Program-made: the position numbers and the translations under genes
Shown here: piece after piece, positions 26,540-61,978 of the stretch
Position numbering within the stretch: position 1 is the first letter of the stretch
Layout of the letters: each line of letters starts with the position of its first letter
Notes under the pieces: generated by a model
Database searches by the model: none
Seen by the model: only the letters and a program-made list of their open reading frames with translations
Told to the model about the DNA's origin: nothing
DNA from: Rhexocercosporidium sp. MPI-PUGE-AT-0058
Lineage: Eukaryota; Ascomycota; Leotiomycetes; Helotiales
DNA: 64,000 nucleotides
Reading direction: 5' to 3'
Assembly: GCA_020746875.1 (NCBI GenBank)
Contig: JAGTJL010000019.1
Coordinates: forward strand, 1,054,001-1,118,000

Positions 26540-29500
26540 ATGGCTGTCCCCCAAACTATACCTATTCCGGGTCCTTCTCGTAAGTCACTCCCTTGGATAT
26601 TGGATCATACTCACCTCTGTTCAAGCCTTACCAGTCCTTGGAAACAGTTTGGACATCGACATCAGTGCGGGCTTAGATTCATTAAACAGACTTTCGGAGA
26701 AGTATGGTAGGTCACGAAGCTTATGGATCTCTCTTCCTCATCGCCACTAACGGCACGCTTCTGAAGGGCCTATATTTCAGCTGAGTTTTGCTGGCGAAAG
26801 TCAAATCGTGATCACAAGTCAAGAGTTGATGGATGAACTGTGCGATGGATCACGTTTCGTCAAAGTTGTTACTAGCTCCCTAGAACGGCTTCGTGACGGA
26901 GTTGGAGATGCTCTGTTCACTGCACACGAAGGGGAGGCTAACTGGGGGATTGCGCACCGGATTCTCATGCCCATTTTTGGAACAGCAAAGATACGAGACA
27001 TGTTTCCACAGATGAAAGATATTGCAGACCAGCTGTGTTTGAAGTGGTACGTGGCGATGAATCAGCAAATCGGAATGAGTTACTGATGTTTTGTAGGGCA
27101 CGGTACGGATCGGAACATTCCTTGGCAGCCACGGAAGATTTCACGAGATTGACTCTGGATACCATAGCTTTATGCTCGATGGATTTTCGTTTCAATAGCT
27201 TCTATCGGGACGGGAGTTTGCACCCTTTCATTATCAGCATGGGTGGATTTCTGAAAGAGGCAGATAAGCGATCAACTCTTCCGAATTTTGTCAACGACCT
27301 CCGGATAAAATCGACAAAGAACTACAAGCACGATATTGCAACGCTGAAGAAGACTAGCCAAGGAATCCTTGATAGCCGTCGTGCTCATCCAGTGGAGACA
27401 GATGATTTGCTCAACGCGCTTCTCTTGGGAAAGGATCCAGTGACTGGTCAAGGGCTGAATGACGAGGCTATTATCAACAATCTGATCACCTTTCTGGTTG
27501 CCGGACACGAAACAACGTCGGGACTGCTGTCTTTTGTACTATACTATCTGCTCAAACATCCAGAAGAGTACAAGCGAGCGCAAAATGAGGTCGACAATAC
27601 CATCGGGACGAACAGCATAACAATCGAGCATTTGTCCAAGCTTCCGTTCATCACAGCAGCCGTGAGAGAGACTTTGCGGTTGATGCCAACAGCACCTGGA
27701 TTTACAGTTGCTGCACGTGAAGACACTATCATTGGAGGGAAGTTCCACGTCCAGAAAGGACTGCCACTGACTTTGATCCTTGGTCAAATTCAACGCGACG
27801 AAAGCTGTTGGGGTCCCGATGCCAAAGAGTGGAAGCCTGAAAGAATGCTGGGGGAGAATTTCGATAAGATCAAACCAAACTCTTGGAAGCCGTTCGGAAA
27901 TGGCACCCGAGGATGTATAGGGAGGGCATTTGCCTGGCAAGAAACTCTGCTTGTAAGTTTCTCCGTCACCTGATAGGTTGCTCAGATCTAATGCCGATAG
28001 GTGCTTGCAATGCTTCTGAAGACCTTCGATATCAAACTTGACGATCCAACATACGAACTCCGGATTAAAGAGTCTCTGACCATAAAGCCAGACGGCTTTA
28101 GAGTCCGTGCAACGTTGAGGCATCATATCAATCCAGCCACTCTAGCCCAAAACCTGCATTCCGGCTCAAACTCGCCAGCACCAAGATCTCTCGCCAGCGA
28201 GCCATCAATGGAGAGCGTGAGGTCCCGGGCTGCGGAAGCCAAGTCCGCTGGAAAATCTTTGAATATTGTGTTCGGGTCCAACGGTGGAACGTGTGAAGCC
28301 CTTGCTCATCGTCTAGCAAGCAACGCTTCGAAACACAAATTTAAGGTGGCGTCAGTTGGTACAATGGACAGCGCCGTGGAATCTCTGTCGTCTGATCAGC
28401 TCTTGATTGTCGTTACTGCCTCGTACGACGGAGAGCCTGCAGACAATGCTAGAAAATTTGTGAGAATGCTGCAAAACTCGAAGGATAGTGTGGCCGGAGT
28501 CTCCTACGCTGTCTTTGGCTGCGGTAAGTTAACATGTCCGCTTCATCGAAGACTACTGATCAGACATAGGGAGTCGAGACTGGCACCAAACCTTTCACTA
28601 TATTCCTATTCTTGTCGATGACTTGCTTCATAAAGCTGGCGGTACAAGAATGATTCCAGTCGCAAAGTCTGATGTCAGCACCAGTGATGCATTCTCGGAT
28701 TTCGAAACATGGGAAGAGACTCAGTTGTGGCCTGCTCTCGTATCAAACTTCGTGGTCGGAGCTTCAACGGACTCCGCAATCTCGGATGCCCCGGGAGTTC
28801 AAGTAAATATCACTCATCCGAGGCAAGTCCTTCTACATCAAAATGTTGCGGAAGGTGTCGTGACTCGCTCGGAAACTCTGACACAGAGCGGTCCTGTGAA
28901 AAAGCACCTTGAAATCCGCTTACCGCCAGGCATGACTTACCAGACTGGGGACTACATTTCAGTCCTTCCACTGAATCCATCGAAGACTGTGCAACGAGCA
29001 CTAGCCTGCTTTCAACTTCCTAAAGATAGTGTTTTGGAAATCGAATCTGCTATCTCAACTTCGTTGCCGCTGACAATTCCAATATCAGCTTCTGATCTGC
29101 TCGGATCGTATGTCGAGCTAACGCAGCCAGCTACTCCCAGGGTAAGACCTTCTTCAACAAAATTCGAAAAGCTATTGCTGACATTCCACAGGATGTCAAG
29201 AATCTTGCAGCACTAGCTTCATCCGAGCCGACTCAGAGATATCTCTTGGACTTAGCCACCTCCTTGATGACTCCCGAAGGCCGTTACAGCCGAGCGTCGA
29301 TCCTTGATCTCCTCGAAAAGTTCGGGGACATCAATTTACCCATCGGGTCGTTCCTGGAAATGCTTACACCCCTACGAGCTCGCACATATTCCATCTCATC
29401 GGCGCCATCGTGGAATGCATCACACGCAACGCTGACAATCTCCGTTCTCAATGAACCGGCACGATTCGGCCACCGGCAGTTCCTCGGAGTAGCCTCGAAT

Positions 29501-30031
29501 TACCTGTCCGAGGTACAAGAAGGGGATGTGATTCGTGTTATGACACGCCCTTCCAACCCAGCCTTTCATCCACCTGAGGACCCAGAATCTTTCCCGATTA
29601 TTATGGTGGCTTCGGGCTCTGGACTTGCGCCGTTCCGAGGCTTTTTACAAGAGCGGATGCTTCAGCTCCAAGCAGGATCGAAACTCAAGCCTGCTCTCTT
29701 GTTTTTCGGTTGTCGCTCTGCTGTCCAAGATGATTTATATCGGACCGAGCTGGATGAGTTGGAAGAAGCTGGAACTGTGAAAGTTTTCCGGGCGTATAGC
29801 ACTGGCTCAGAGTCAATGCATGTTCAAGAGAGGCTATGGAAAAGCAACGCGCTGGTCAAAGAGCTGTGGGATGATGGAGCTAAGATGTTTGTTTGCGGGA
29901 GAGTGGACATGGTGGAAGGCGTTAAGGGTGTGCTGGGTAAGATACTGGCAGGTGGTCGAGAGGGACAAGAGTCTAAGGAGATGGTGACTAAGTTGAAGTC
30001 TTCTCGTTTCGTTGTAGAGGTTTTTTCTTGA
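26540..30031 (+). CDS. Self-sufficient cytochrome P450 : NADPH-P450 reductase fusion (CYP505 type)
   Basis: Seven exons (26540-26579, 26626-26706, 26767-27046, 27097-27952, 28001-28523, 28570-29141, 29192-30031) give about 1063 aa, the usual length of BM3/P450foxy-like enzymes. P450 half: proline-rich start IPIPGPSPLPVLGN, I-helix [17 protein letters not shown] (ExxR), and heme loop [15 protein letters not shown] with the Cys ligand. Reductase half: FMN domain with [15 protein letters not shown] and [15 protein letters not shown] domain with [11 protein letters not shown], and NADPH domain with [16 protein letters not shown] and FFGCRS. The family carries out subterminal hydroxylation of fatty acids using electrons from its own reductase. 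No N-terminal membrane anchor is present, so it should be soluble, as for CYP505. The terminal stacking residue is Phe (FVVEVFS), where CPR-type enzymes have Trp. The FMN loop SNGGT in place of SNTGT is mildly unusual. Confidence 0.92.
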
Positions 30032-31065: not shown

Positions 31066-32975
31066 ATGCGTCCACAAAAAGTTGATCTTGGCCTGGACGA
31101 GGTCGTGTCCCCATGGGGAAGACAAGTCCAAGACGGCCCTCAGAACGAGTTTTCAGTCGATTGGAAGGCTCATTTAAGAGAAGATCCAAATCGTCAAAGA
31201 ATCTACCAAACCCTCGACCTAGGCATCGCAGAGTTCCGCATTTTGGTTCTTCTTCCGTCCGCCGAAGAATCATCCACACTAGAATGCCGATTGCGACTAG
31301 CTTCTTTCGACTCATGTGAGAGCTTCGAAGCTCTATCATATGTATGGGGGATCCGGAATTCACATCTGTCATAACGCTGAATGATGTACCATTTTCGATC
31401 ACGCCGCGTCTTGAGGAAGCACTGCGCCATCTCAGATATCAGGACACACCCCGAATACTTTGGGTGGATGCATTATGCATTGATCAAGCAAACAATAGCG
31501 AGCGGCGGTACCAAGTTGGTTTGATGCGACAAATATACTCTAATTGCACTTCTGGGATCTTGTGGTTGGGATCGGATGAGGAGGGTATTTTGGCTCGCGC
31601 GATGACTGTATTGACTAATATTGAAGGACATGACATCGAGAGTCTCGGTTTCGATATTGAACCTGGATTTGATCGTGGTCCGGATGAAGACGACCGCCCG
31701 GAATACAAATTGCATTGGAAGGACTGGAGAGCAATCCAGGAGCTACTAGTGAAGAACCCTGTGTGGAAGAGGGTGTGGATTATGCAAGAGCTATCACTTG
31801 CACCGAAGTTCGCATTGACATCGGGCAAGGCAATCCTGGACTGGAGTGTCATTGAATCCCTTCTTGGGATGGACAGGCACTACACAGATGCTTTCCACGC
31901 GACTTTCGGCCATGGCAGCGTGTCAAGATTGGCATCCGATACGTTCTCTACTGCCCAAATTATCAAGAGTCAACGAAAGCTTTGTCGCGAGGAAATCGAT
32001 ACAACTGGAACCACCCTTCTTGATGTGTTGGCTAGATTTCGATTTACCGAGTCCACAGATCCCAGAGACAAAGTTTTTGCGCTGTTAGGTCTCGCTTCAG
32101 ATCCGCTAGGTATCACGGCTGACTACTCCATGGACGTTGATGCAGTTTTCACCGATGCAGCAGTTAGAATAATTAATAAGCTCCAGAATCTCGATATCAT
32201 CTGCCAAAGTCAATGGCAGTCTTTCAGTAATCCCAAGCGGCGTCAAGGTCTTCCTAGTTGGGTTCCCGATTTCTCATGGCCTGGGACGGGTACCTTCTTA
32301 TTTGCTCAGAGGGCGATATTTGGCGCTGGTCGGCCGGTATGCAAAACTCCCATGAAGTTGACATCGGGAAAGATGTCCCTCAACGGACATTTTGTCTCGT
32401 CCTTGACCATGCATAATACGACTTCCCAGGCAAATCTCACAAACCGCTTTGGTCACATAAGCGTTGAAGAAAGTTGGGCAAAAATTATGCAGTGGTGGAC
32501 CAAATGTCAAGCCGTTAACGAACAAACGTATCTCAAGGAAGATTCCTTCCAAGCGTTTTGGAGGACTATTGCTGCGGACCGCAAACGTCCATACCGACAA
32601 CATATGCAGCGATTGTCCAAGGAAGACATCGCAGCAGACAATGCTTTGATTCGTGCAATTCAAGATGGGACAGAAGAGCATGATATGTTGGGTGACATGC
32701 GTTGCTATGGCATGATTCTGGAAATGTTATCGACTTCGCGATTCTGCCTAACGGATTCGAAGCACTTCTCCATGGTTCCTGTTGGCTCCGAGACTGGAGA
32801 CATGCTAGTAGTGCTGGATGGAGCAAAGGTCCCCCTTGTACTGCGGCCGGTTCCTTGTGATGAGCCTGCGAATATAAGTGCTTTTTCAGTTGTCGGTGGG
32901 GCTTATGTTCATGGCTTGATGGATGGAGAGGCGATTACAGGTGCTTTTGAGGAGAGGGCTTTTACCATTTCCTAG
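31066..32975 (+). pseudogene. HET-domain (heterokaryon incompatibility) protein with a 1-nt frameshift
   Basis: The first segment (from ATG 31066) runs MRPQKVDLGLDEVV and carries IRILV-like and ECRLRLASFDSCESFEALSYVWG, the opening of the HET domain. The next expected residues, DPEFTSVITLNDVPFSI, are in another frame (ORF from 31344). The switch is at a run of five G (31346-31350), where six would restore a single frame of about 636 aa. Later HET motifs are intact: LRHLRYQDTPRILWVDALCIDQ, ERRYQVGLMRQIY, GILWLGS, WIMQELSLA, and LLDVLARFRFTESTDPRDKVFALLGLA. The C-terminus has AYVHGLMDGEA, which is typical. HET proteins trigger cell death after fusion of unlike strains. It may be a true null allele, a phase-variable run, or a base-calling error. 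No intron explains the shift, because it falls inside the motif. Confidence 0.75.
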
Positions 32976-47571: not shown

Positions 47572-48299
47572 GGCTTATAAGCTAGCCAATCAGCTGGCGA
47601 TTTGACGTCAGTCAGTCAGCTCAGCCCTAGCCTTAAGTCAATTAATTGAAATATTCTCAGCTAATCATTAGCTTATAAGCTAGGATTATATTTAGATTTA
47701 ATTTTAGAGTCAGTTTAATAAAAAGAGTAATAATAATTTGATGTTTTAACTTACCGATTTGGCGATACCGAGACGAAATTATGACCTTCGATAAGATAAA
47801 ATTAAGCGGTGAGAGTAGGTAGGATATTTAAAAAAGCTATTAGCTAGTATTATAGGCATATATTAAGTGATTAATTTTATCTAAAATCATTAACAACGCT
47901 ATATCTCTTTATACCTTACCTATTACCGTTAATAGAGCTGCCTCTAAGGCTTCCGGAGCATTATCTGCTGTCTTTACAGCTAATATATTCGGCCGTATAA
48001 TAGCAACTTCTAGTGTTTCGGCACTATCGGTACTAATAGCTCCCACACCTCTTCGTAATACTTACTAGCGGCCTCCACGTATATACAACGAGTATTACAA
48101 CCCTTACGAGCCTAAGCGCGAAAATCTACCTTTAGATTATTCTCCTTACGTTAATAATCAGCCGTTATTTAACGATAAAGCGATAGATTTAAGGAAATTA
48201 CCTCGTGGAAAGACGCTAGCTCCTGTAAACAAGAAACCGAGGAGGTCTTAAGTATAAGAGTTAGAATACATATTAATTAATCTTACTCACCCTAAGAAG

Positions 48300-50400
48300 C
48301 ATTAATATTAAGCCTGTAAAAGTTATAAGTTATAGAACAAATAATAATAAGTTATAAGCCTAAACTAACGATATTAAGTCACCACGATTAACGATTTTCT
48401 CGGCATAAAAAGCACCTCTTTAACGCCAATAGTCTGAAGAACGCGAAGAAGCACTTATTATAAGTCCACTACTTAAATAAAAGAGGTGATATATAGCGAA
48501 TGGAAGCTATAAGGCAACTTGCGCAAGCCTTTGAGTTTATGGACGGTGATCTAAACCGTGTAATTCCCTTTCGACAAAAAGAGTTCAAGAATGCCTTCTT
48601 AAAATAAGTTATCCTAAACGACATAAAAGCACAAAAAGCCGCCTTAAAGCACCTTAAAACGCTATTCCGGATAACTAACGATGCTACTGTTAATTCTATG
48701 CCTTTAACTAGCTTAACTGTTAGCATTTAGATTAATTAAATGTTTATATACTTTAAACTATAATTAATTATAAAGGTTTTAAGTGCACAATCTAAGATAT
48801 CGATTACCTTTAATAGGTGGGGTTTTAAAAGAGACAAAATCAATATAATAGCTATAGTCCTTCACTTTATTAATAGTAAAGGACAGCTCGTCACTCGACT
48901 CGCAGGTCTTCTAGAGCTTCTAGGACATGGAAAAACAAGCATTGGTACGTATAAACTAAGTACCGGGCATTAGTTTTGACTTTAAATAAAGCAATGTTTA
49001 ATTATCCTTCCTCTTTTATAACGATTCGGCATTATTATACAGAACCTCGGCTGGTTTGTCTTTAATAACGCAACGAATAACGATATAACTCTTGTGAAAC
49101 TTATAAAAGTATATAAATTCGACCCTAAACAACGCCGATTACGTTATATAAGCTATATCCTTAATTTAATCGCGGAAGCATACTTATTTAGTCAAGATAG
49201 CGCAAGCTTTAAAAGAGATTATAAGACCGCAAGGCCATTAGCGCGACGTTAACTTTAGAAACAACGTGAAAAGCTTAGAAAGTTATACAACTTAATAGTA
49301 TATATAATAGCGTCTGGGAAACGTATTAAACTCTTTATTGAGTTATAGAAGGAATGGAACGAAAGTAAAGCTGTAAGACGTAGTTTAAAGCTCGTTTTAG
49401 ACGGAGGAATACGCTGGAATGCCTTATATGCTATAATTACGCGCGCTTTCCTGCTCCGCGAAGCTCTCGATTGATACGCGTTAAAACTAAGAGTATTAAA
49501 AGACTTAGAAGACGTAGAAATTAATATAAAAGACTACTTAAGAGACGAGGAATAATCAACTTTAGAGCTCATCTCTAAGCACCTTGAACTTCTCTTTTAT
49601 ATTACTAAAGCACTTAAAAGAAATACTAAATTAACTAAAGATATAAGAAAGCCATCGCATAACGCGTTATAAGAGGTTTTACCTGCTTTTAAAGGCCTTT
49701 TATAGCACTTTGAAGGTCTATAACAACAGGCGGAGAACGGCGACTTCGGTAGAAATCTACGCATACAATAGTCGATTACTCTAGCATAGCAAAAAGCATA
49801 AAAATATTACGTTAAGACTGACTTATTTATTACGTAGTAAGCTGCCGTAATACTTTACCCGCGTTAGAAATAAGCATACTTTAAAGAGAGATAGACGGGG
49901 CCAGAGCGATTATACGTGATTAATAGCAAGAAAGCACTCAAGACGTTATAAGAAAAGGAGTATAAGTCTGAGCCTGCCATACGGCAAGAAACTGCCTCTC
50001 CAGAGCCAGAGCAATAAATTAATTATTTAAAGGCTATATTGAATAGCCTAGCACCTACGATAAGAAGGAATGCTGCTACACGTACTTCAAGTCGAAGAGA
50101 TCAACTAGCACAGTACTTAGAAAAACCAACCTGCTCTATACCGCTATTTGAGTACTGGAAGTCTAAATAGGCTTTATAGCCACAGTTATCTGCGATAGCG
50201 TTTAACTTTCTGGCCGTCCCCGCTATAAGCTCTAAGTATAAGCGTGTTTTTTCCTCTTGCTCTAAGTAAACAACGCTAGAGGTCTTAAATCTATCGGCAG
50301 ATATACTTTAGCATAAGGAATACTTAAAGAATTAGCAGCATAAAGGTGCTATTAAGTTATTATCATGCCATAATACTATTTAGTTAAGAATATAATTTTT
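48300..50400 (+). pseudogene. hAT transposase remnant
   Basis: This is the decayed coding region of the element. Several blocks align in order with the catalytic and C-terminal (hATC) parts of Restless/Tam3-like transposases, as listed under the element. Exact ends cannot be set because there are nonsense codons throughout. In KSK-stop-AL-stop-PQLS the two TAGs probably stand for Trp or Gln codons. Confidence 0.7.
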
Positions 50401-50523
50401 TACCGCTTTAATTTTGACCCCTGCAGCTGATTCGCAGCTTAAAAGTTACTTAGTTAAGTCAGCCAGCTATCAATTTGTATATAAGTCAGTCAGTTGAGAA
50501 ATCTGTTCAGCTGATGGCTGACT

Positions 50524-50545
50524 GATTGGCTTATCAAACGCTCTG
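50524..50545 (-). repeat. Right terminal inverted repeat of the hAT element
   Basis: The end reads GGCTTATCAAACGCTCTG on the plus strand, the inverted partner of the left end. Confidence 0.85.
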
Positions 50546-51750: not shown

Positions 51751-52890
51751 TCAAGCACAGATGGTGAAAGCAAGGTCGTCCTCGTGTTCGGTCATGTGAA
51801 CTTCCTTAGATACCGGAAGTACACCAGTCAACCTTCTGGTCGGTGAGCCGAAAAGTGTGGGGAGGTCTCCAACGATAGGTCCTGAAGGGAGAAAAAGTTC
51901 CCCGTCCTTGGGGTCTAGATACGCGGGTGAGACCTTAATTCTGTCGCTCCTTTTGGGGGGCTTCTGTTGGAGAACGTACTGGCGAACCATTTGGGAGATT
52001 TTGTACCATACTCCTTGCACTTCTGGAGGTGCGGGAACTAGTCGGAGTTTGAGGTAAGAGCAAGCCATTATTACCTCGCCTTCATATGTGCCGTGAAACG
52101 CCTCCCACTTCGTCACAGCGACATCTGCATTGACATTGGCCGCTGGGGATGGTTGTCCTTCTTGCAGACCCGGCGGCTTGAGTTGAATGCCACCACGCCA
52201 TTCCTGTAATGTCTTTTGCGATTTCTCGAGGTCAGTGAAAGTGAGCATGCTAACGATGATGGCAACTCTTCCATTTTCTTGCAATCGTAATAGCTCCAAA
52301 ATTGGGTTCGCATATTCATCACGTCTCAGTAGCTCGGTGATTCGATCTTGCGGATTCGGTATGCCAATTCTTCGGAATGAGCTTGCTGATATATCGGTAT
52401 CTCTGGTATGCTCGTAACTGGTGTATAGCCGTAGCATGTTTTCAACTGCCACCTGTGCCTTCACATTGATGGCTTTCCGCTTCAGGATTTCGACATCTCG
52501 ACAGACAATGGCCCTTTTTGGGTAGAGATCCTGGTCCAAATCCAGAAGGTCTACACCTCGGCTTTCTCCTGGCCCTGTGAGCGCATTCGCTCTATCGCCA
52601 TCGCTGTGTTCCCGGCTTGTGGGATGAGGTGTATCGACTTCTGTCTTCGCACTCGCAGAGTCGACTGTGGGTGCATCTCCCTTGCCATCGGAAGAAACCT
52701 GGAGATGATCGTCCGTTTCATCCACCTTAGAGACCGAATGTCCGTTATTGGGAAGTTGAGGTCGCATTCTCCCCCCAAGAGGATTTCGGAGCTGGTTGAG
52801 CGGTATTGCCCGGCCTAGCAACGTAACAATATGGTAATCTGAAAGTGGCTCACTGAGAGCAAAATAAGGGAGATCGTTTGACTTAGTCAT
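51751..52890 (-). CDS. Probable gasdermin-like pore-forming protein (RCD-1/HET-Q1 type)
   Basis: Single exon, 379 aa. No single motif proves the family. The order of features agrees with fungal gasdermins: an N-terminal LLGRAIPLNQL segment, a variable polar insert (about residues 45-110), a region of amphipathic pattern (AINVKAQVAVENML), then IPNPQDRITELLRRDEY, the hydrophobic strand GRVAIIVSMLTFTDLEKS, and EGEVIMACSYLKLRLV, followed by a polar C-terminal tail of about 80 residues. In known systems, removal of a short C-terminal segment by a protease lets the N-terminal part form membrane pores and kill the cell. Its start codon lies 676 bp from that of a CHAT protease gene in divergent orientation, and an NLR follows. 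That context is the one described for fungal gasdermins and raises my confidence. Alternative: an unrelated effector with similar secondary structure. Confidence 0.6.
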   Translation of the reverse strand: MTKSNDLPYFALSEPLSDYHIVTLLGRAIPLNQLRNPLGGRMRPQLPNNGHSVSKVDETDDHLQVSSDGKGDAPTVDSASAKTEVDTPHPTSREHSDGDRANALTGPGESRGVDLLDLDQDLYPKRAIVCRDVEILKRKAINVKAQVAVENMLRLYTSYEHTRDTDISASSFRRIGIPNPQDRITELLRRDEYANPILELLRLQENGRVAIIVSMLTFTDLEKSQKTLQEWRGGIQLKPPGLQEGQPSPAANVNADVAVTKWEAFHGTYEGEVIMACSYLKLRLVPAPPEVQGVWYKISQMVRQYVLQQKPPKRSDRIKVSPAYLDPKDGELFLPSGPIVGDLPTLFGSPTRRLTGVLPVSKEVHMTEHEDDLAFTICA

Positions 52891-53566
52891 GTTGAGGAGT
52901 ATATTTTGGATCGTGTTTATGATTCTTCGTATTCAAAAATTGAAATCTTTGTCCACGACAAACAATGTAAAGCGGATAGGTGAAAAAATGGACCGAAGGT
53001 CGTGTTTTATTGAATTGGGAATGGCAGCCACGAATCAAGCTCAGCCTTACTACCGGATTTTCAGAGGCACTTTTGTGGCTGGTGCACCTGAGGTATGGGT
53101 GGCAAAAGCAGCCGTGAATTTTGCATTTGTCTTCAGCCCCCCCTCGCCACCTCATCATCGTGAAGCCTCGATGACATTCTGCTTCTCAAGTCTCCAGTCA
53201 GGGGCGGGCGGGTGACGGACTGCGAAGCCTGGCTACCTAGAAAAAGCACTGAATAGCTATTCTGGATGCAGGCGAGACCAAGCCACAAACCTCAGCTTCT
53301 CGTACGATTTTGCACAGAGTCACAGCCTATGCAACCATCTCCAAGCATCACAAAGGCCACTCGATCTTTTGAGACCAGTTCGTGTTTTCGTTTTACCGCC
53401 GAACCATGACAGCCTCACTGACAGCCACATGGTCCGCCCGGCTCCCTAGGTCGATTGTGAATAACCTGTTGGGACACTCGTTCAACCCCAAAGACTAGGA
53501 CGGAGGCTCAGTTGCATTGAAGATCCGAATTATTCTGGTCTTTGTACGGTCGACAGTCCCTCAGCC
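52891..53566. promoter_or_regulatory. Shared divergent promoter region (gasdermin-like / CHAT)
   Basis: 676 bp between two divergent start codons. Short ORFs overlap it (for example 52889-53215) but have no motifs. Co-regulation of the two genes from this interval is plausible, not shown. Confidence 0.4.
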
Positions 53567-55993
53567 ATGATGAGCGTGGTTCGTCCAATCAAAAAGCTTG
53601 TGATATATTGCGACTCGGCAGTATCCACGACGCCACGCGCTTGGAGAGTGAAGCTGGGCATTGAAGACCCCGACACCAAGGAGATCAAATACATCAAAGA
53701 CAAGGACAGTGACGAAGATGCTCATTTTGATCTTGTGGACCCGTGGGATAAGCCACGCTACGATCAAGAGATGACACCAGAGTGGACTGGGGCCAAATTC
53801 AGAGTAGGTACTTGTCGATGCTTGTCTTGCGTGAAGAGGTTTTTGACTGTTTTACGCTTAGAAACAAGAGAATAGTGAGGTTCCAAAGAAATTGCAGGAT
53901 TACGGCAAGAGTCTTTACGATCGGCTGGGATTACAGGAAGTGTTAAATGGATGTGGCTGCGACAGGATATCAATACACGAAGACATCCACCCCACTCAAA
54001 GCTCGAATGAACAAACACCGCCCCTCAGACGTGCGAGCATTCATTCTCTGCTATGGGAAGTCTTTGAACATCCCAAGATTTGGAGTGAAAAATGTGCAGC
54101 AAAATCTGAAGATCTTCCACCGCGCATTACAAGAGTGCTCACGAGACAATTAATTGATGATACTCTGGTACGCAATAGAACCTGTCGCATCCTACTCGTA
54201 ATTTCCAGAAGTTTTCAGTACATGGTGATAGACTCCATGGTAAAGCCTGCAGATGCAAAACCCGGTCTCATTCAGAGCACGCTTCTTGAAATTGGAAATT
54301 ACCTAGAGAAAAAGGGCCTTGGATCTCGTTTCACGCTCGACGTTGTTCGACCTGGGACTTTTGTTCAATTTGAAAATTTCTTGAATGGGGAAACAAATGC
54401 TGGACGGAAGTATGACATTGTTCATTTTGATCTTCATGGCTCAATCAGGTGAGAACATTTCCGAGCCCGGCCCCTGCTGTTTCTATCCAAAACTAACAAC
54501 GAATTAGCAAGGAAAGTTCATTACTTCGCTTCGGCACATCAAATCACAACCTACCACACCTTTCAGTCGAAGATGACACGAAATTCGTTGTTCCTGATGC
54601 CGCGGGGTACCAAGACATTAACGTGCACAAGGTTGCGAAGGAGCTTCAAGATCATGGTGTCACTCGCGTTGCACTGAATGCATGCTTGTCATCTTGCGCA
54701 CAAAATCAGACGCTGCCAAGTATGGCTGAGATCTTCATAGAGCATGGAGTTACATCCGTTTCTGCAATGAGCTACATGATCTCGGATGAAACCGCCAAAA
54801 TCTATTACGATGCATTCTATCAAGCCTTGATTCTTGGTGAAAAGGGTTTCCATGAAGCTGCAGCAAAAGGCCGGGAAGCATTGCGTCTAGAATCCCCAGG
54901 GCCCAAGGATTGGTTGAACCCAACCAATTACCGCAATAGGGTAATTACCTTCAACAACAAGCTCTTGCCAGGTCGCCCACACATCATACGATGGATTTGG
55001 CTAGCCGGTCTCCTGGGATATCTTCATGCATGTCCCTGGCCGGACACGTCCTATCGGTTCATGATCCCGTCAAAATTCTTGTCTCCAATCCATTCCTGGC
55101 CTGTGACCTCCCCCAACAATGGATGGTCTCTCCGCTTGAAGACATTAGAATCATGGCTAGTACTTGCTACCCTGTTTAGCTGTCTCATAGTCTATCGCCA
55201 TCAAGTACCCTCACGAGCGCTGGCGCTGCAGCGGTATCTGGTTGACCGAGCAGCCCAGAAATTTTCTCGGGCAGATCATTACGCTGCATATTCTGCTTTT
55301 CACAAGGAACGAATAATCGTGAGGAAACGCGAGCGTCGAGCGTCGAACCTCGAGTTGTCGATTGAACATATGGCAATCGAGGATCACCTTCACTGGAAAA
55401 AGAGACTCTACCTATGGGGGGACGACAATGAATATTTGAATACTACTATAGTGAACTTAGCAAGGCTATGGATACGGACAGGCTTCATTGACGAAGCTTA
55501 TATCAAGGATGCGACCGATTTTCTAGGATTTCTGTCTCTGCCTCACTTGACCAAAAGCATTTTCAATGGTGGAGTCCTTCCTGATCGGCACCGAAAAGTG
55601 CGCGGCCCTCGAGCCCTACTTGTCATCCAAAACATTGACAAGTTTGTGGTGAGTCTGAAGAATCGTCAAGTCGAGCTGGCGAAAAAGTTGCAGCAAGGAA
55701 AAAATGTCGGGTCAACAAAAAAGGCCCAGCTGGTCAAGAATTTTGAGCTGGCAAATGCAGACGAGACGCAAAGGATGAATTCATGGATTAAGAGCCACAG
55801 CGCAGGATCAGACTGCCTCAACACCTATTTAGTGATCACTGGAGATAAGGACAATAATTGGTGGAAGAGTCTAGTCTGGGGACCCGATATAAACCCGAGT
55901 TGGGGGGATGCTTTCCCATATAACCCGAATATCTTCGAATGGGGGAGTAGTGAGGCTGATCTGATTCGTCCACCTCCAGATCCCTATACATAA
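53567..55993 (+). CDS. CHAT-domain (caspase/separase-like) protease with membrane segments
   Basis: Three exons (53567-53803, 53862-54448, 54508-55993) encode about 769 aa. The CHAT domain spans roughly residues 165-400. The catalytic His lies in YDIVHFDLHGSIS (H271 before the Gly) and the catalytic Cys in VALNACLSSC (C334), the HG and AC pattern of clan CD proteases; ARK-like SISKESSLLRFG lies between them. After the domain come two hydrophobic stretches, near 431-451 (IIRWIWLAGLLGYLHA) and 484-502 (WLVLATLFSCLIVY), so the C-terminal 270 residues may be membrane-tethered. The tail is basic and helical (KKLQQGKNVG). CHAT enzymes cleave gasdermins in bacteria and are found next to gasdermin genes in fungi. 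Here the neighbour upstream looks like one, making it the likely substrate. It ends 35 bp from the convergent NLR stop codon. Confidence 0.8.
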
Positions 55994-56028
55994 CTTATTG
56001 GAGAGGTATATAATTCACTTCGCATCCT

Positions 56029-59000
56029 TTATCTTGGTGGAGAAATGTGGTATCTCGTGGCCACACTCTTCGCTTCATCATCCTGTCCCAATTTGAGAAG
56101 CACACAGTGAAGCTGTTTCGCAACGGCTTGCGTTTTCGTCTTCGAAGTGCTCAAAAAACCTGATACGAGTTCCTTCGAACTTGTGTAAGCATTGAGAACA
56201 GCTTTGAGGTCCTCGGCGGCCTTCTGTAGCTCTCCCTGCTGCCTGTAAATTTCTGCCCTGCTCATGCGAATTTTGATCACATCTGGATGCCTGTGTCCAA
56301 ACCATTCTTCCAATCGTGTCAAGGATTCAGAATACAATCTCAAAGACTCGCTAAATCTTTTCTGGCGGTTGTACAGAGTGGCTAGCTTGACGGTGCTGAG
56401 TTGCGTATTGGGATGATCCAATCCTAGCCGCTGCTGGTTTTGAGTTTGCGCCTTGGTGTAAAATCTCTCGGCATCTTGAAGTCTACCCAGCGCTATGGCT
56501 ATAAAACCCATCATCTCGAGCGACTCTGTGACTTGAGGATCATGTGGTCCATATAGTGCTTCGTATGAGAAAAGAACCCTTCGCATGATCGGATCCGCTG
56601 CTTCGAAGTCGCCTTGCTCGATTAGAAATGACATTAGGACTTTCAACGTGCTGAGGGTGAGTGCATCAACCGGCCCCAATTTGTCTTCGAATTGGATTAC
56701 AGAAAGCCTGGCCTGGTCTATCGCTTCATCGATAAGGCCAGACTGATACTTGAGGCGAATCTTCAAAAAGCTTCGGGAAGGGTCTTCCATTGTTTCTTTC
56801 CTCGAATCCTCATGACCTAATGATGGGTCCATGTTCCAAACCTTTTCGGCCTTTGAGGTATCTTTCGTTTCCAACAGAATATGTAGCAGCCTCATCGACG
56901 TCTTTTTTGAGTAATCGCCATTCTCCAGCTTTCGATAGGCACAATCTCCAAATTTGTCTGCAGCGAAGTAATGACCACGACGATGACAGAGCTCTGCAAC
57001 ATCAACCCAATTCTGGGCAGATAGGTAAGATTGCGAAGAACTGTCATTGGTATCAATCTGATAGTTTGCCATCAAATTAACTACGCTCTTCTGGGTTAAA
57101 GAGCCTAGGGCCCCATTGCCGACCCTAGTTAGAGTTCCCCTTGCAAATGAAGCCATGCATCGCCAGGCTCGTTGTACTGCAGCAGCTCGCTCTTGTTGAT
57201 CAAGTTGACCGAGTCGCCAGTGCGCGATCAAATCATTCGCGAAGACATAGCGGTGATTGTAGTCGCGCGAGACTAGCTTCTGTTCTTCGAGTCTTGCCAT
57301 CCCATGCTCCAGTTCTGAATCTGTCTGGAGGTCAGCATCAAGCGAAAAAGGAGGGCAGAGTATGCTAAATACCATTCGTAACACCGAAAGTATCGGGACG
57401 AGCCAAAAATACCTCCCAAGGGATAGCTTCTCCTGGAAACACACAGCAACAATCCAGTAACCTCCGCTCGTGCTTCTTTAATTGCAAGATACGAGACTCC
57501 CAGTTTTGAAGTACAGAAGGTACGGTTGTAAGGGCACGACTTTGAATTCTCTGGTCAGGACCTGTTTCGTTAGCTCCTACAAACGTTCTGGAGTATTGTC
57601 CAAGCGTCATTCCAGTAGAGGAGATTTGTGAGGCGATTCGGACCAGCTGAAGAGGGTTACCGTCGCAAGATTTCACAATTTTGCTGATTTTCGCCGCTTA
57701 TGCAAGTCAGTACAGTTGATACGGCTCATTCTCGCACTGCAACCTACCTTGTACTTTCTCCTCCATCGGCGTCCCAACGAGCTCTAAAAGTAAAGCCTTG
57801 GAGCTTTCGGAGACCAGGCCTGGAAGGTGTATGTTTTGAATAGCACTAAAATCCAGAGCCTGACGTCTTGTAATCACAACATGACCATGATTATGCTTAT
57901 TGACTGGGACCAAATGAAAGATATCCATCACATCTTCCATATCTACAGCATCCAGAATGAGTAGCCATCCATCATTTCCTTTTCGATTGAACCACTCAAT
58001 GACAGCTCTTGTAGCGATCTTAGGTAAGGTGTTGCCGAGCCTAATCTCCTCATCTGTAAAGTGGTTGATTAACTCTTGAAGACCGAGAGTAGTTGCGGCC
58101 TTAAATTGAGCTTCAGCTCTTGTCGAACCTGAGCATTCAATCACGCGAGTGTAGTGTTCCAGCAGCTTCTGGGCGATTGAAAAGAAACCCATTTCAATTG
58201 CTCGCGCGCTTTCGCCAAAGATCCAAAAAATTGAGCTAAACTCAGTTTGATGCGCATGGGCATACTGGAACACAAGTTGAGTTTTTCCAACCCCAGGCGG
58301 ACCACTGACAACAATCAAAGAGCCAAACTTCGTGTTTGTATGGCTAATAAGGAGAGCTTGATGGATCGAATCCAGTTCAGCGTTTCTACCTATAAAGACT
58401 GGATTTGGGGCCGGCAAAGCGGGGTCGATGTTGAAGAAAGCGTCGCCGTCTTCGCCTATCGAGGAGGTGACTGCTATTTCTCAATTTTTAGGAATAACGA
58501 TTAATGTTATAGATTCAAAGTAGACTTACCATGATTCGAGCTGTACTTCGTCCAGGTGTCCTGACAGAGTGTTTCGGAGCCTTGACAAAGATCGGCCAGC
58601 ACAGTCACAAACTTTTTATAGCCCTTATCATCCGAGGAAGTGAATCGGCCCATGGAAGCATGATGTTTCGGAAAGCGTTTGACCTTGTATCCCTCAACGC
58701 TTCGACAGTCACTTACCTGCATGATCCATTAGCCGAAAAGGGTTTATGGTTGTGGTAGTGGAAACTACGTACCATTTGCGCACTAGCTCCCAGTGTTGGA
58801 TCAAATCCGCGCACAGGAATTTCGGATGTCGCTGCAATGAAAGGTTGAAGCATGTTCTTCAGAGATCTCGAGTCATCCTCTAGAGTGGCAGTATCTGATT
58901 CGTTACCAGCACCCGAGTCTTTCACGATGCGGATGAAAGATCTGGTCCATTCGTCGTCCGTCACTCCTCTGAATGGCGTTCCCAGGAATATCACGCCCGT

Positions 59001-59552
59001 AGTTGATAGACATATAGCACGCAATCGTTCGTCTGCCGACGCAGACGATAGAATGAAGGCGCTCTCAATAATAATCCCGCCTAGCTCATGGCCGACAAAG
59101 ATGATAGGTCTTCTGCACTCTGAAACTTTCGTTCTCACATTACACAGTGCCTCTGCAAGTTCGATGGCTTGGTGGTACAACGTTCTCGTTGTGAGGTATC
59201 TGGAGGATGGAAACTTTGTATTGTAGCCGTAGGAAAAGATCCTCACCGGGCATGGCATATTCTTGTCATCGGGGAGCAAATCGCGCGGCCAAAACTTTCC
59301 CTGGCCAGGCTTCTCCTCAGATGTCCATGTCGATTCACGATTTCCACTAAGACCATGCACCAAGCAGAGGTCCACCTCAGCGTTCGTAGGAGCGACGATG
59401 CACTTCAATCCAAATTTGTCAAGTCCATTTGTGCTTAGTCGGCGAGCTCGAGCTCGAAGGGCCCAATCGAAAAGTGCTTGTGTAATATCTCTGCCCAGGC
59501 CCACAGCGGCAGTGACAGAGTTTACGACGTCAATGCTCATCGCGCCAAACAA
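56029..59552 (-). CDS. NLR: SesB-like hydrolase fold - NB-ARC-like NTPase - TPR repeats
   Basis: Five exons (59552-58773, 58716-58530, 58473-57748, 57696 to about 57373, about 57338 to 56029) give about 1,110 aa. N-terminal domain: alpha/beta-hydrolase of SesB type with CLVHGLSGNRESTWT, WPRDLLPDD, RIFSYGYNTKFPSS and IIFVGHELGGIIIES. The nucleophile elbow reads GHELG where GHSLG is usual, so hydrolase activity is doubtful. The NTPase domain has VFIGRNAEL, VVSGPPGVGKTQLVFQYA (Walker A), GWLLILDAVDME (Walker B), HVVITRR and CDGNPLQLVRIASQI. The C-terminal part has kinesin-light-chain-like TPRs, for example LGRLQDAERFYTKAQTQNQQRLGLDHPNTQ and FSESLRLYSESLTRLEEWFGHRHPDV. Fungal NLRs of this build sense non-self or cell-surface changes and switch on an effector. 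Context suggests this one controls the adjacent CHAT/gasdermin pair. Start at ATG 59552; the ATG 12 bp downstream is an alternative. Confidence 0.85.
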
Positions 59553-60205: not shown

Positions 60206-61978
60206 CTACGCTCTCTCGTATGCAGTCAACCAGAATTCCGATTGGAAGAAGAGACCGTAACAGATAGATCTCATGGGCTTCATCGGATTGACGACGTTAA
60301 AGTCAAATTGTCGGAAAAGCTATATCAAAATCAGTAGTATCCACAAGAAAAAACTTGGGAAAACGTACCTCAACAAACAGCTTATTCAATTCCATCCATG
60401 CAACATTGCTTCCCAGACATTTCCACTTCCCGTAACCAAAGATCAACTCTAGCGTAGAGTCCATGTCGCGAAGTTTGTCTTCACCTTTGTCAAGCCATCT
60501 CTCAGGCCTATACACCGCGGGATCATCACCCCACAGCTTCTTATTGTGGAATACCCCATACATTCCATACCCGATCTTCGTTCCTCCAGGGATGAAAACC
60601 CCATCGATGGTATCGCCGCCTGGCGGCACTTCTTTGGACATCAATCCCACCACAGGTGGGAAGATACGAAGTCCTTCCTTGATGATGGCTTGCAGATATG
60701 GCATCTTTCGTGCTTCTGAATCTGTGATGGGAGAAGACGTAGTGTGGCTTGCGATTTCATTACGGAGCTTTGCAACTACTCGTGGGCTCATGACTAGGTA
60801 CGACATGATTGCTCGCATTGCTGTGGCGGTTGTATCCGAACCAGCCAGACTGAACTTATTAGCTCAAATGCCTGGAATGTATGAAGCCACAACACCTACA
60901 TCTGTAGAACTGTTTCCGACTCTGCTTGGTCTTGTGTGAGTCCATGAGCAACAAACGAGCCGAGCATATCTTTCTCGATCTTTTTGTCGGGACCAAATCT
61001 CTTCGCAACAACGCCATTCGTGATACTGAGGAAGTGTCAGTATACACTTGACAAAGATGTTCTCAACATTAGGAAGTCGTACCCTAAAATCTTTCCCATT
61101 CCCAAAGGGTCTTTATCAGAAGGCAAAATTGCCTTCAAAATACTCAAACGCAGGACCCAGTTGAGCCAGGGAAAGATCGTAACTAACAACGCAGAGGAGA
61201 AGACATTTTCGACGGTAGCAATAAAGTCGTACAAGTCCGAGTCAGTTCTAAGATACCCAAATGCTTCTCTGTATGCTGCATCGGAAATGACATCCAGGGT
61301 CAGATACTGCGCTTTTCTTGCAAAGTCCATTGGTTTTGTGTGGGTTTCATTTGACAAATACTTTGTTCTGATGAGGTTGACCAAAGCTTGAATATTGCGA
61401 TCTACTGTGCCTTCGAGATCTTCATTTTCCTTCCCCGAGTACTGATGTTATTGTTAGATTAATCGGTTGATGCTTCAAACTAAACTCACACCTGGAGCCA
61501 TCATCGCTCTCAACTCATTATGTTTCTTCTCGTCTCGTTCCGAAGAGACATTGTCTTTCACGGGATCAAATCGAACACCAACATACCAATCTGACCGAGT
61601 GTATGGTGATCTCACAGCCATCATGCGTTTGATGATAGCGGGGTCGCCAGCAACAAGGTCATTTGGTCCAACTCGAGCAAGCGACCCTAATATTCGTCAA
61701 CCCCGCTGTCCGTACCGCCTCACTTGAAATTTAAGTTGTTACATAACAAACATACCGTATTTCTCATTTACCGCTTGAAGGTCATAGTGCATGTCACCAG
61801 CCGATATCTTCTTCGCGAGCCAAAACCGAGTCAACGCAGCAATCTTTGGTCCTTTGAAATGTCGCAGTCGGTACCAACCTTGGAAAACTCGCACCGAGTG
61901 CCATGTTACCAGAGCTGCAAAAGATACCAGGATCCAGTGGCTGGCAACAAAAGCCAGAGATTTCGCTACGGTACTCAT
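60206..61978 (-). CDS. Cytochrome P450, pisatin-demethylase-like
   Basis: About seven exons read right to left, with starts and ends in phase; protein of about 500 aa, the normal length. It opens with a membrane anchor (LAFVASHWILVSFAALVTW), then FKGPKIAALTRFWLAKK. Further features: LARVGPNDLVAGDP, I-helix LAGSDTTATAMRAI, IKEGLRIFPP (ExxR), the PERW motif YRPERWLD, and heme loop LIFGYGKWKCLGSNVAWMELNK with its Cys ligand. The last exon (RQFDFNVVNPMKPM to WLTAYERA, stop at 60206) is recognised as the family's usual ending. Relatives detoxify plant phenolics such as pisatin or act in secondary metabolism. It is an endoplasmic-reticulum enzyme that relies on a separate reductase. The substrate cannot be told from sequence. 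Confidence 0.88.

Follow-up and report, generated by a model that had tools for sequence, protein, structure and literature searches.

Three neighbouring genes of a filamentous fungus raise the question of whether they work together as a small cell-death circuit. The window analysed here, a stretch of 64,000 nucleotides, corresponds to C11:1054001-1118000 of a 62.7-Mb fungal genome; the source genus, Rhexocercosporidium, is an ascomycete of the Helotiales. An earlier note, made from the letters alone, had recognized in this window a gasdermin-like protein, a CHAT protease and an NLR, and had proposed that the NLR senses, the CHAT enzyme cuts and the gasdermin-like protein opens pores. Our analyses leave about even chances that the cluster is a three-component, pyroptosis-like gasdermin/CHAT/NLR cell-death module. 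This reading is based on a CHAT domain in which the His-Cys dyad is present, on an NB-ARC-TPR receptor whose P-loop is intact, and on the pairwise linkage of the genes in relatives; the gasdermin fold is its missing piece.

Gene models and layout of the cluster

Gene models confirm the presence of three genes on the strands originally claimed (-, +, -), with exactly the spacings reported between the divergent start codons (676 bp) and the convergent stop codons (35 bp). The NLR starts at an ATG at 59540, 12 nt inside the claimed end at 59552. The features, in window coordinates, are:

51751..52890, minus strand: gasdermin-like 379-aa protein, single exon (ORF 52890-51754, stop codon 51751-51753)
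52891..53566, no strand: intergenic region of 676 bp separating the divergent start codons of the gasdermin-like and CHAT genes
53567..55993, plus strand: CHAT protease, 769 aa, 3 exons (53567-53803, 53862-54448, 54508-55993)
55994..56028, no strand: gap of 35 bp separating the stop codons of the convergent CHAT and NLR genes
56029..59540, minus strand: NLR, 1098 aa, five exons (59540-58773, 58716-58530, 58473-57748, 57696-57373, 57320-56029)
58773..59540, minus strand: NLR exon 1, 256 aa, hydrolase-type domain with the nucleophile elbow GHELGG, in which Glu152 replaces Ser

The two introns of the CHAT gene measure 58 and 59 nt, and the spliced model is 100% identical over its full 769 aa to BKA65DRAFT_119938 (NCBI name; Rhexocercosporidium sp. 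MPI-PUGE-AT-0058). The NLR has four introns (56, 56, 51 and 52 nt); its model comes from a simple scoring of 60 open splice combinations, in which four variants of 1095-1098 aa, differing at the acceptor sites of introns 2 and 4, tied for best. A frame break in the NLR near 57373-57320 was considered and rejected, as a consistent 52-nt intron accounts for the region. The 676-bp divergent region is a possible shared promoter.

The surroundings of the cluster are varied. An AT-rich stretch at 47600-50545 has a signature resembling RIP, with a composite index of 0.94-0.96 between 48 and 50 kb, and is multi-copy: at least 59 places in the genome match it, itself included, and identity to the other copies is 65-89% (from 40 scored candidates out of 81). 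It is probably a mutated transposon relic, with the gasdermin-like gene about 1.2 kb away. An ORF with an incompatibility-type HET domain (PF06985, E 2e-23) occupies 31320-32972 on the plus strand, some 19 kb from the module. At 26942-30028 (plus strand) a P450 ORF is followed by flavodoxin, FAD- and NAD-binding ORFs, in what looks like a self-sufficient P450-reductase fusion, and another P450 lies on the flank of the module (60306-60863, minus strand).

The CHAT protease

The CHAT assignment is upheld by Pfam, PF12770 scoring 30.3 bits in the window protein against a cut-off of 24, and the catalytic residues are at exactly the claimed positions, so that the domain and the His-Cys dyad (His271/Cys334) by which a CHAT protease is recognized are both present. 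A protein search in which only the 7994 candidates sharing most words were scored yielded 10 proteins including the window protein, four of them at 50-76% identity and five at 29-34%, the latter including proteins of Annulohypoxylon, Rostrohypoxylon and Fusarium. The column of the catalytic Cys is invariant in the 10 aligned sequences; the His column is uncovered in 4 of the 10, the closest relatives, which are fragments beginning downstream of the His.

Past its CHAT domain the protein has hydrophobic stretches at residues 434-452 and 485-503, followed by a long conserved C-terminal region that is kept in all 10 aligned sequences. This region has no Pfam match, and a PDB sequence search with the CHAT family returned no hit or chance-level hits only. 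Three motifs picked out in it by eye (LYLWGDDN, LLVIQNID, TYLVITG) presumably recall a degenerate AAA-type NTPase, a reading to which the Pfam and PDB sequence searches lend no support.

The earlier note had also described the CHAT protein as apparently membrane-bound. Over 19 residues, hydropathy reaches at best 1.66 in the window protein, against 1.81-2.71 in its nine relatives; as a control, the longest ORFs at seven further CHAT loci (L002-L008 of the same genome; L009 was left out), some of them truncated at the locus ends, have maxima of 1.18-1.82. Eight of the nine relatives exceed this control maximum and the window protein lies below it. On hydropathy grounds the family is therefore likely to be membrane-anchored, and for the window protein anchoring is plausible but unproven; the description is thus supported by the relatives, where the signal is clearer, but not by the window protein, which does not stand out from other CHAT ORFs.

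The NLR and its N-terminal domain

The NLR consists, in order, of an alpha/beta-hydrolase-like domain, an NB-ARC/AAA_16 domain and TPR repeats. Scores are above the Pfam cut-offs for both NB-ARC (33.8 bits, cut-off 23.5) and TPR_12 (74.0 bits, cut-off 30.1), in agreement with the original assignment as an NTPase-TPR NLR, and the P-loop (GPPGVGKT) is intact. The protein thus has the build by which fungal NLRs are recognized, namely NB-ARC or NACHT in the centre and repeats at the C-terminus.

The hydrolase-type N-terminal domain was absent from the first description. Pfam DUF676 matches it below the cut-off only. Exon 1 has at least 14 matching places in the genome. One is exon 1 itself and two belong to a single gene, which together with the remaining 11 makes at least 12 other genes related to it. 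The nucleophile elbow contains Ser in all 12 of these genes and Glu (Glu152) in the window NLR; the count leaves out one secondary alignment of L038 (E 0.64). The serine nucleophile that characterizes the elbow of SesB-like alpha/beta-hydrolases is thus lacking here, and the NLR N-terminus, judging from the elbow, probably has no serine hydrolase activity.

Relatives of the NLR were searched with its last exon as query, full-length annotated proteins being outside the reach of this search. The identities of the matches drop from 53% straight to 28%, and a narrow group of NLRs therefore appears to accompany the module; on their sequences these are probably orthologues.

The 379-aa protein and its family

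The family of the 379-aa protein comprises six sequences including that of the window (P0001-P0006). They share a conserved core (residues 123-320 approximately), a variable low-complexity insert (about 45-118) and a variable linker (about 341-370), beyond which the extreme C-terminus is again conserved, with D371, D372, L373 and F375 invariant in all six. The 'gasdermin-like order of segments' noted earlier is an interpretation of this architecture.

Profile and structure searches did not connect the family to known gasdermins. Pfam returned two chance-level matches only for the six members (E 0.14 and 0.24); its Gasdermin model, which may not recognize fungal gasdermins, matched none of them and nothing in the genome, and PADLOC matched none of the six. 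A PDB sequence search with the family gave nothing below E 0.9 in a library that may be without an RCD-1 chain. AlphaFold predictions on the six-sequence alignment, which holds few relatives, had a pLDDT of 34.9 for the 379-aa protein and 32.6 for the shorter relative P0006, and the best Foldseek match to the low-confidence model of the former had an E value of 4. Because homology to known gasdermins was not found, the protein is classed as gasdermin-like only, and not as a member of that family.

A profile of the family was also run against 2669 ORFs of at least 40 aa, taken from 15 stretches around eight other CHAT places of the genome and from the window. Apart from the window protein, a single ORF reached significance (L024:2881-3777, 299 aa, E 9e-5, 19.1 bits), followed at E 2.1 by the next in rank; the best of 20 shuffled ORF sets reached 10.1 bits, and reversed ORFs 6.9 bits. 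The match is modest and covers only residues 141-286 or so. This paralog and related features are:

L024:2920-3777, plus strand: C23 paralog (286 aa from the first ATG), on C23 near 2.927 Mb, found with the family profile
L024:2-2611, minus strand: CHAT-TPR gene divergent to the C23 paralog
L030:1591-2025 (C33:112458-112892), minus strand: third distant relative, found in the C23 protein search (E 1e-11, 22% identity)

The first ATGs of the C23 paralog and the CHAT-TPR gene are 308 bp apart and divergent, a layout like that of the window. Profile-profile comparison, in the same register, gives P 3.8e-5 and a probability of 71%, and by eye the C-termini are alike (...AFTICA in the window protein, ...VFVILA in the paralog). 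In the reverse direction, a profile built from the two paralogs (C23 and C33) gave five family members E values of only 0.02-0.32, the C23 protein search did not recover the window gene at E <=10, and a search with P0006 recovered the window gene only and not the C23 gene. The family profile had no match to the C33 ORF at E <=1. PDB sequence searches with these two paralogs yielded nothing above chance level. The C33 relative has two stops inside, perhaps an intron; neither CHAT nor S8 occurs on its contig among the matches listed, and its three neighbouring ORFs have no Pfam match.

About 7 kb past the end of the C23 CHAT gene there are ankyrin repeats, and a neighbouring ORF shows NACHT-like motifs by eye. 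Elsewhere in the genome two CHAT matches lie about 5 kb apart on opposite strands (C45:57257-58234, minus; C45:63190-64122, plus), near which the family profile finds no significant gasdermin-like ORF (best E 2.1). The genome holds at least 37 S8-protease loci.

Linkage of the genes in relatives

Linkage in other fungi was deduced from the searches, which give the size of the longest contig of each match; equal values across searches were read as a shared contig. As a positive control, the window pair P0001 and P0007 both report 1436741, the true size of C11, and the shared-contig reading therefore works. On contigs referred to here by this value, gasdermin-like and CHAT relatives occur together on 39304 (P0002 and P0009) and on 6336 (P0003 and P0010), a gasdermin-like protein and an NLR on 12314 (P0004 and P0019), and a CHAT protein and an NLR on 11069 (P0011 and P0020). 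The source labels are identical in three of these four pairs and overlap in the fourth (jgi vs jgi,ena), identities are similar within pairs, and the linked proteins are 50-76% identical to those of the window.

Paired in this way are three of the five gasdermin-like relatives (unpaired P0005, P0006), three of the nine CHAT relatives (unpaired P0008, P0012-P0016) and two of the eight NLR matches (unpaired P0017, P0018, P0021-P0024). The search with the last exon of the NLR gave no match on contig 39304 or 6336. The expected linkage of the trio in related genomes is thus borne out pair by pair, each of the possible pairs recurring on a shared contig, but not for the trio as such: the search matches include no relative in which a single contig carries all three.

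The context typical of fungal gasdermins (about 80% of them, by the reviews), a protease gene within 10 kb, is present in the window, where the CHAT gene is 676 bp away; it recurs on contigs 39304 and 6336, and at the distant paralog beside the second CHAT gene. We regard the 379-aa protein as a probable, though unproven, gasdermin.

Proposed mechanism and alternative explanations

The persistence of gene pairs in relatives makes it probable that the three genes constitute a small defence circuit based on self-destruction, and the earlier interpretation of the cluster is borne out in part and strengthened by this recurrent linkage. It gains further from the CHAT and NLR assignments and from the paralog beside a second CHAT gene, while its gasdermin part is without a PDB or Pfam match. 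Starting from the observed families and pairwise linkage, we infer all of the functional steps as follows. The NLR would sense a trigger via its TPR repeats (non-self fusion, a virus or a bacterium being candidates) and then oligomerise; its hydrolase-type N-terminus, devoid of the serine nucleophile, would be a docking or signalling part and not an enzyme. Oligomerisation would gather the CHAT protease, possibly at the membrane, though signalling between these two proteins is suggested solely by their linkage. The protease would then cut the gasdermin-like protein in the variable linker ahead of the conserved C-terminal tail, and the freed N-terminal part would form membrane pores, so that the hyphal compartment dies.

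These observations can also be interpreted in other ways. We consider it rather unlikely that the module has only two genes, with the CHAT protein both sensing, through its conserved C-terminal region, and cutting, and with the NLR as an independent neighbour. Such an arrangement would agree with the fungal systems reviewed in the consulted part of PMC10197012, which are mostly two-gene systems with the sensor fused to the protease, with the retention of the long CHAT C-terminus throughout the alignment, and with the two gasdermin-like and CHAT contigs that have no NLR match; it is at odds with the sharing of contig 11069 by CHAT and NLR and of contig 12314 by gasdermin-like protein and NLR, and with the narrowness of the group of close NLR relatives, whose identities equal those of their partners. 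It is also conceivable, but in our judgement unlikely, that the 379-aa protein is some other substrate or partner of CHAT in an NLR-CHAT pathway, for example a regulator, and not a gasdermin. PDB, Pfam and structural matches are indeed absent, the reverse profile searches to the C23 paralog are not significant, and the protein, at 379 aa with a variable insert, exceeds the 244-278 aa of RCD-1 and HET-Q1 (as given in the extracts of PMC12881547 and PMC10989679); against this, the divergent pairing with CHAT fits the published context of fungal gasdermins, and the distant 286-aa paralog is equally placed beside a second, TPR-bearing CHAT gene.

Finally, the three genes could be unrelated chance neighbours from families that are common in filamentous ascomycetes, as the at least nine CHAT matches of this genome, the 12 or more other genes related to NLR exon 1 and the separate HET-domain gene inside the window might lead one to suppose. 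This we hold to be very improbable, because the linkage of pairs recurs in relatives, where it persists at only 50-76% protein identity.

Comparison with known systems

According to the sections of two reviews available to us (PMC10197012, PMC12881547), protease genes adjoin about 80% of fungal gasdermin genes, 19% of which are near CHAT, a subset of fungal receptors are protease-NLR fusions, and in Podospora a TPR-bearing CHAT protease activates the adjoining gasdermin; HET-Q1 is activated by the loss of about 5 kDa at its C-terminus (same sources and PMC10989679). The three-gene module proposed here resembles these gasdermin and protease pairs (HET-Q1/HET-Q2 and the Podospora CHAT pair; Clave et al. 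2022, as covered in the reviewed portions of PMC10197012, PMC12881547 and PMC10989679) in that a pore-former-like gene stands beside a protease gene, with a short conserved C-terminal tail as a possible inhibitor in both, and it has the CHAT class in common with the Podospora pair. Compared with the two-gene clusters as they are summarized there, Pfam detects neither TPR nor NB in the window CHAT protein, whose gene is linked to a separate NLR gene; the 379-aa protein carries a variable insert (about 75 aa) and matches no gasdermin in Pfam or among PDB sequences. The same parts, a receptor, a caspase-like protease and a gasdermin, make up the 'contracted pyroptotic-like pathways' outlined in PMC10197012, in which fungal NLRs with N-terminal CHAT or S8 stand beside gasdermins; in that outline protease and receptor are one protein, whereas the window encodes them separately, with a hydrolase-type domain at the N-terminus of the NLR instead.

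The earlier remark that a separate CHAT and NLR would be an unusual arrangement is a fair one, as the reviews, in the extracts at hand, describe protease-receptor fusions and two- or three-gene clusters (PMC10197012, PMC12881547). No description of a cluster of stand-alone CHAT, NLR and gasdermin was found in the searched portions of the literature (including PMC9815663, PMC11138114 and PMC11760362), though Clave et al. 2022 may already list trios, and the search found no paper naming both Rhexocercosporidium and gasdermin. With respect to these portions of the reviews, which describe protease and receptor as fused, the probable novelty is the separation of sensor, protease and pore-former. 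Control of the gasdermin-activating proteases is named as future work in the part of PMC12881547 consulted, and separate genes for receptor, protease and pore-former would allow it to be tested gene by gene. The receptor with its changed nucleophile suggests a route from an effector-bearing to a signalling NLR. On a tentative and more doubtful view, the cluster would be a fungal inflammasome in three proteins, with a nucleophile-less receptor as adaptor, a caspase-like protease that stands alone and is associated with the membrane, and a gasdermin family too divergent for current profiles to recognize, all co-inherited among related fungi.

In the animal inflammasome (NLR, caspase-1, GSDMD), receptor, caspase-clan protease and pore-former are likewise three separate proteins; CHAT is related to caspases at the clan level only, the window genes are clustered, and no adaptor was identified for the window module, unlike in the animal system. 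Homology between the two circuits is not claimed.

The PP cluster of Chaetomium globosum comprises an NLR, HELLP and the SesB lipase. It works with a HeLo-type killer and amyloid signalling and, unlike the window, is not known to include a CHAT protease or a gasdermin-like protein. The likeness lies in the clustering, as three genes, of an NLR, a membrane-attacking protein and an enzyme, and the portion of PMC12881547 that deals with this PP-amyloid system presents it as a three-gene cluster with a necroptosis-like mode of action.
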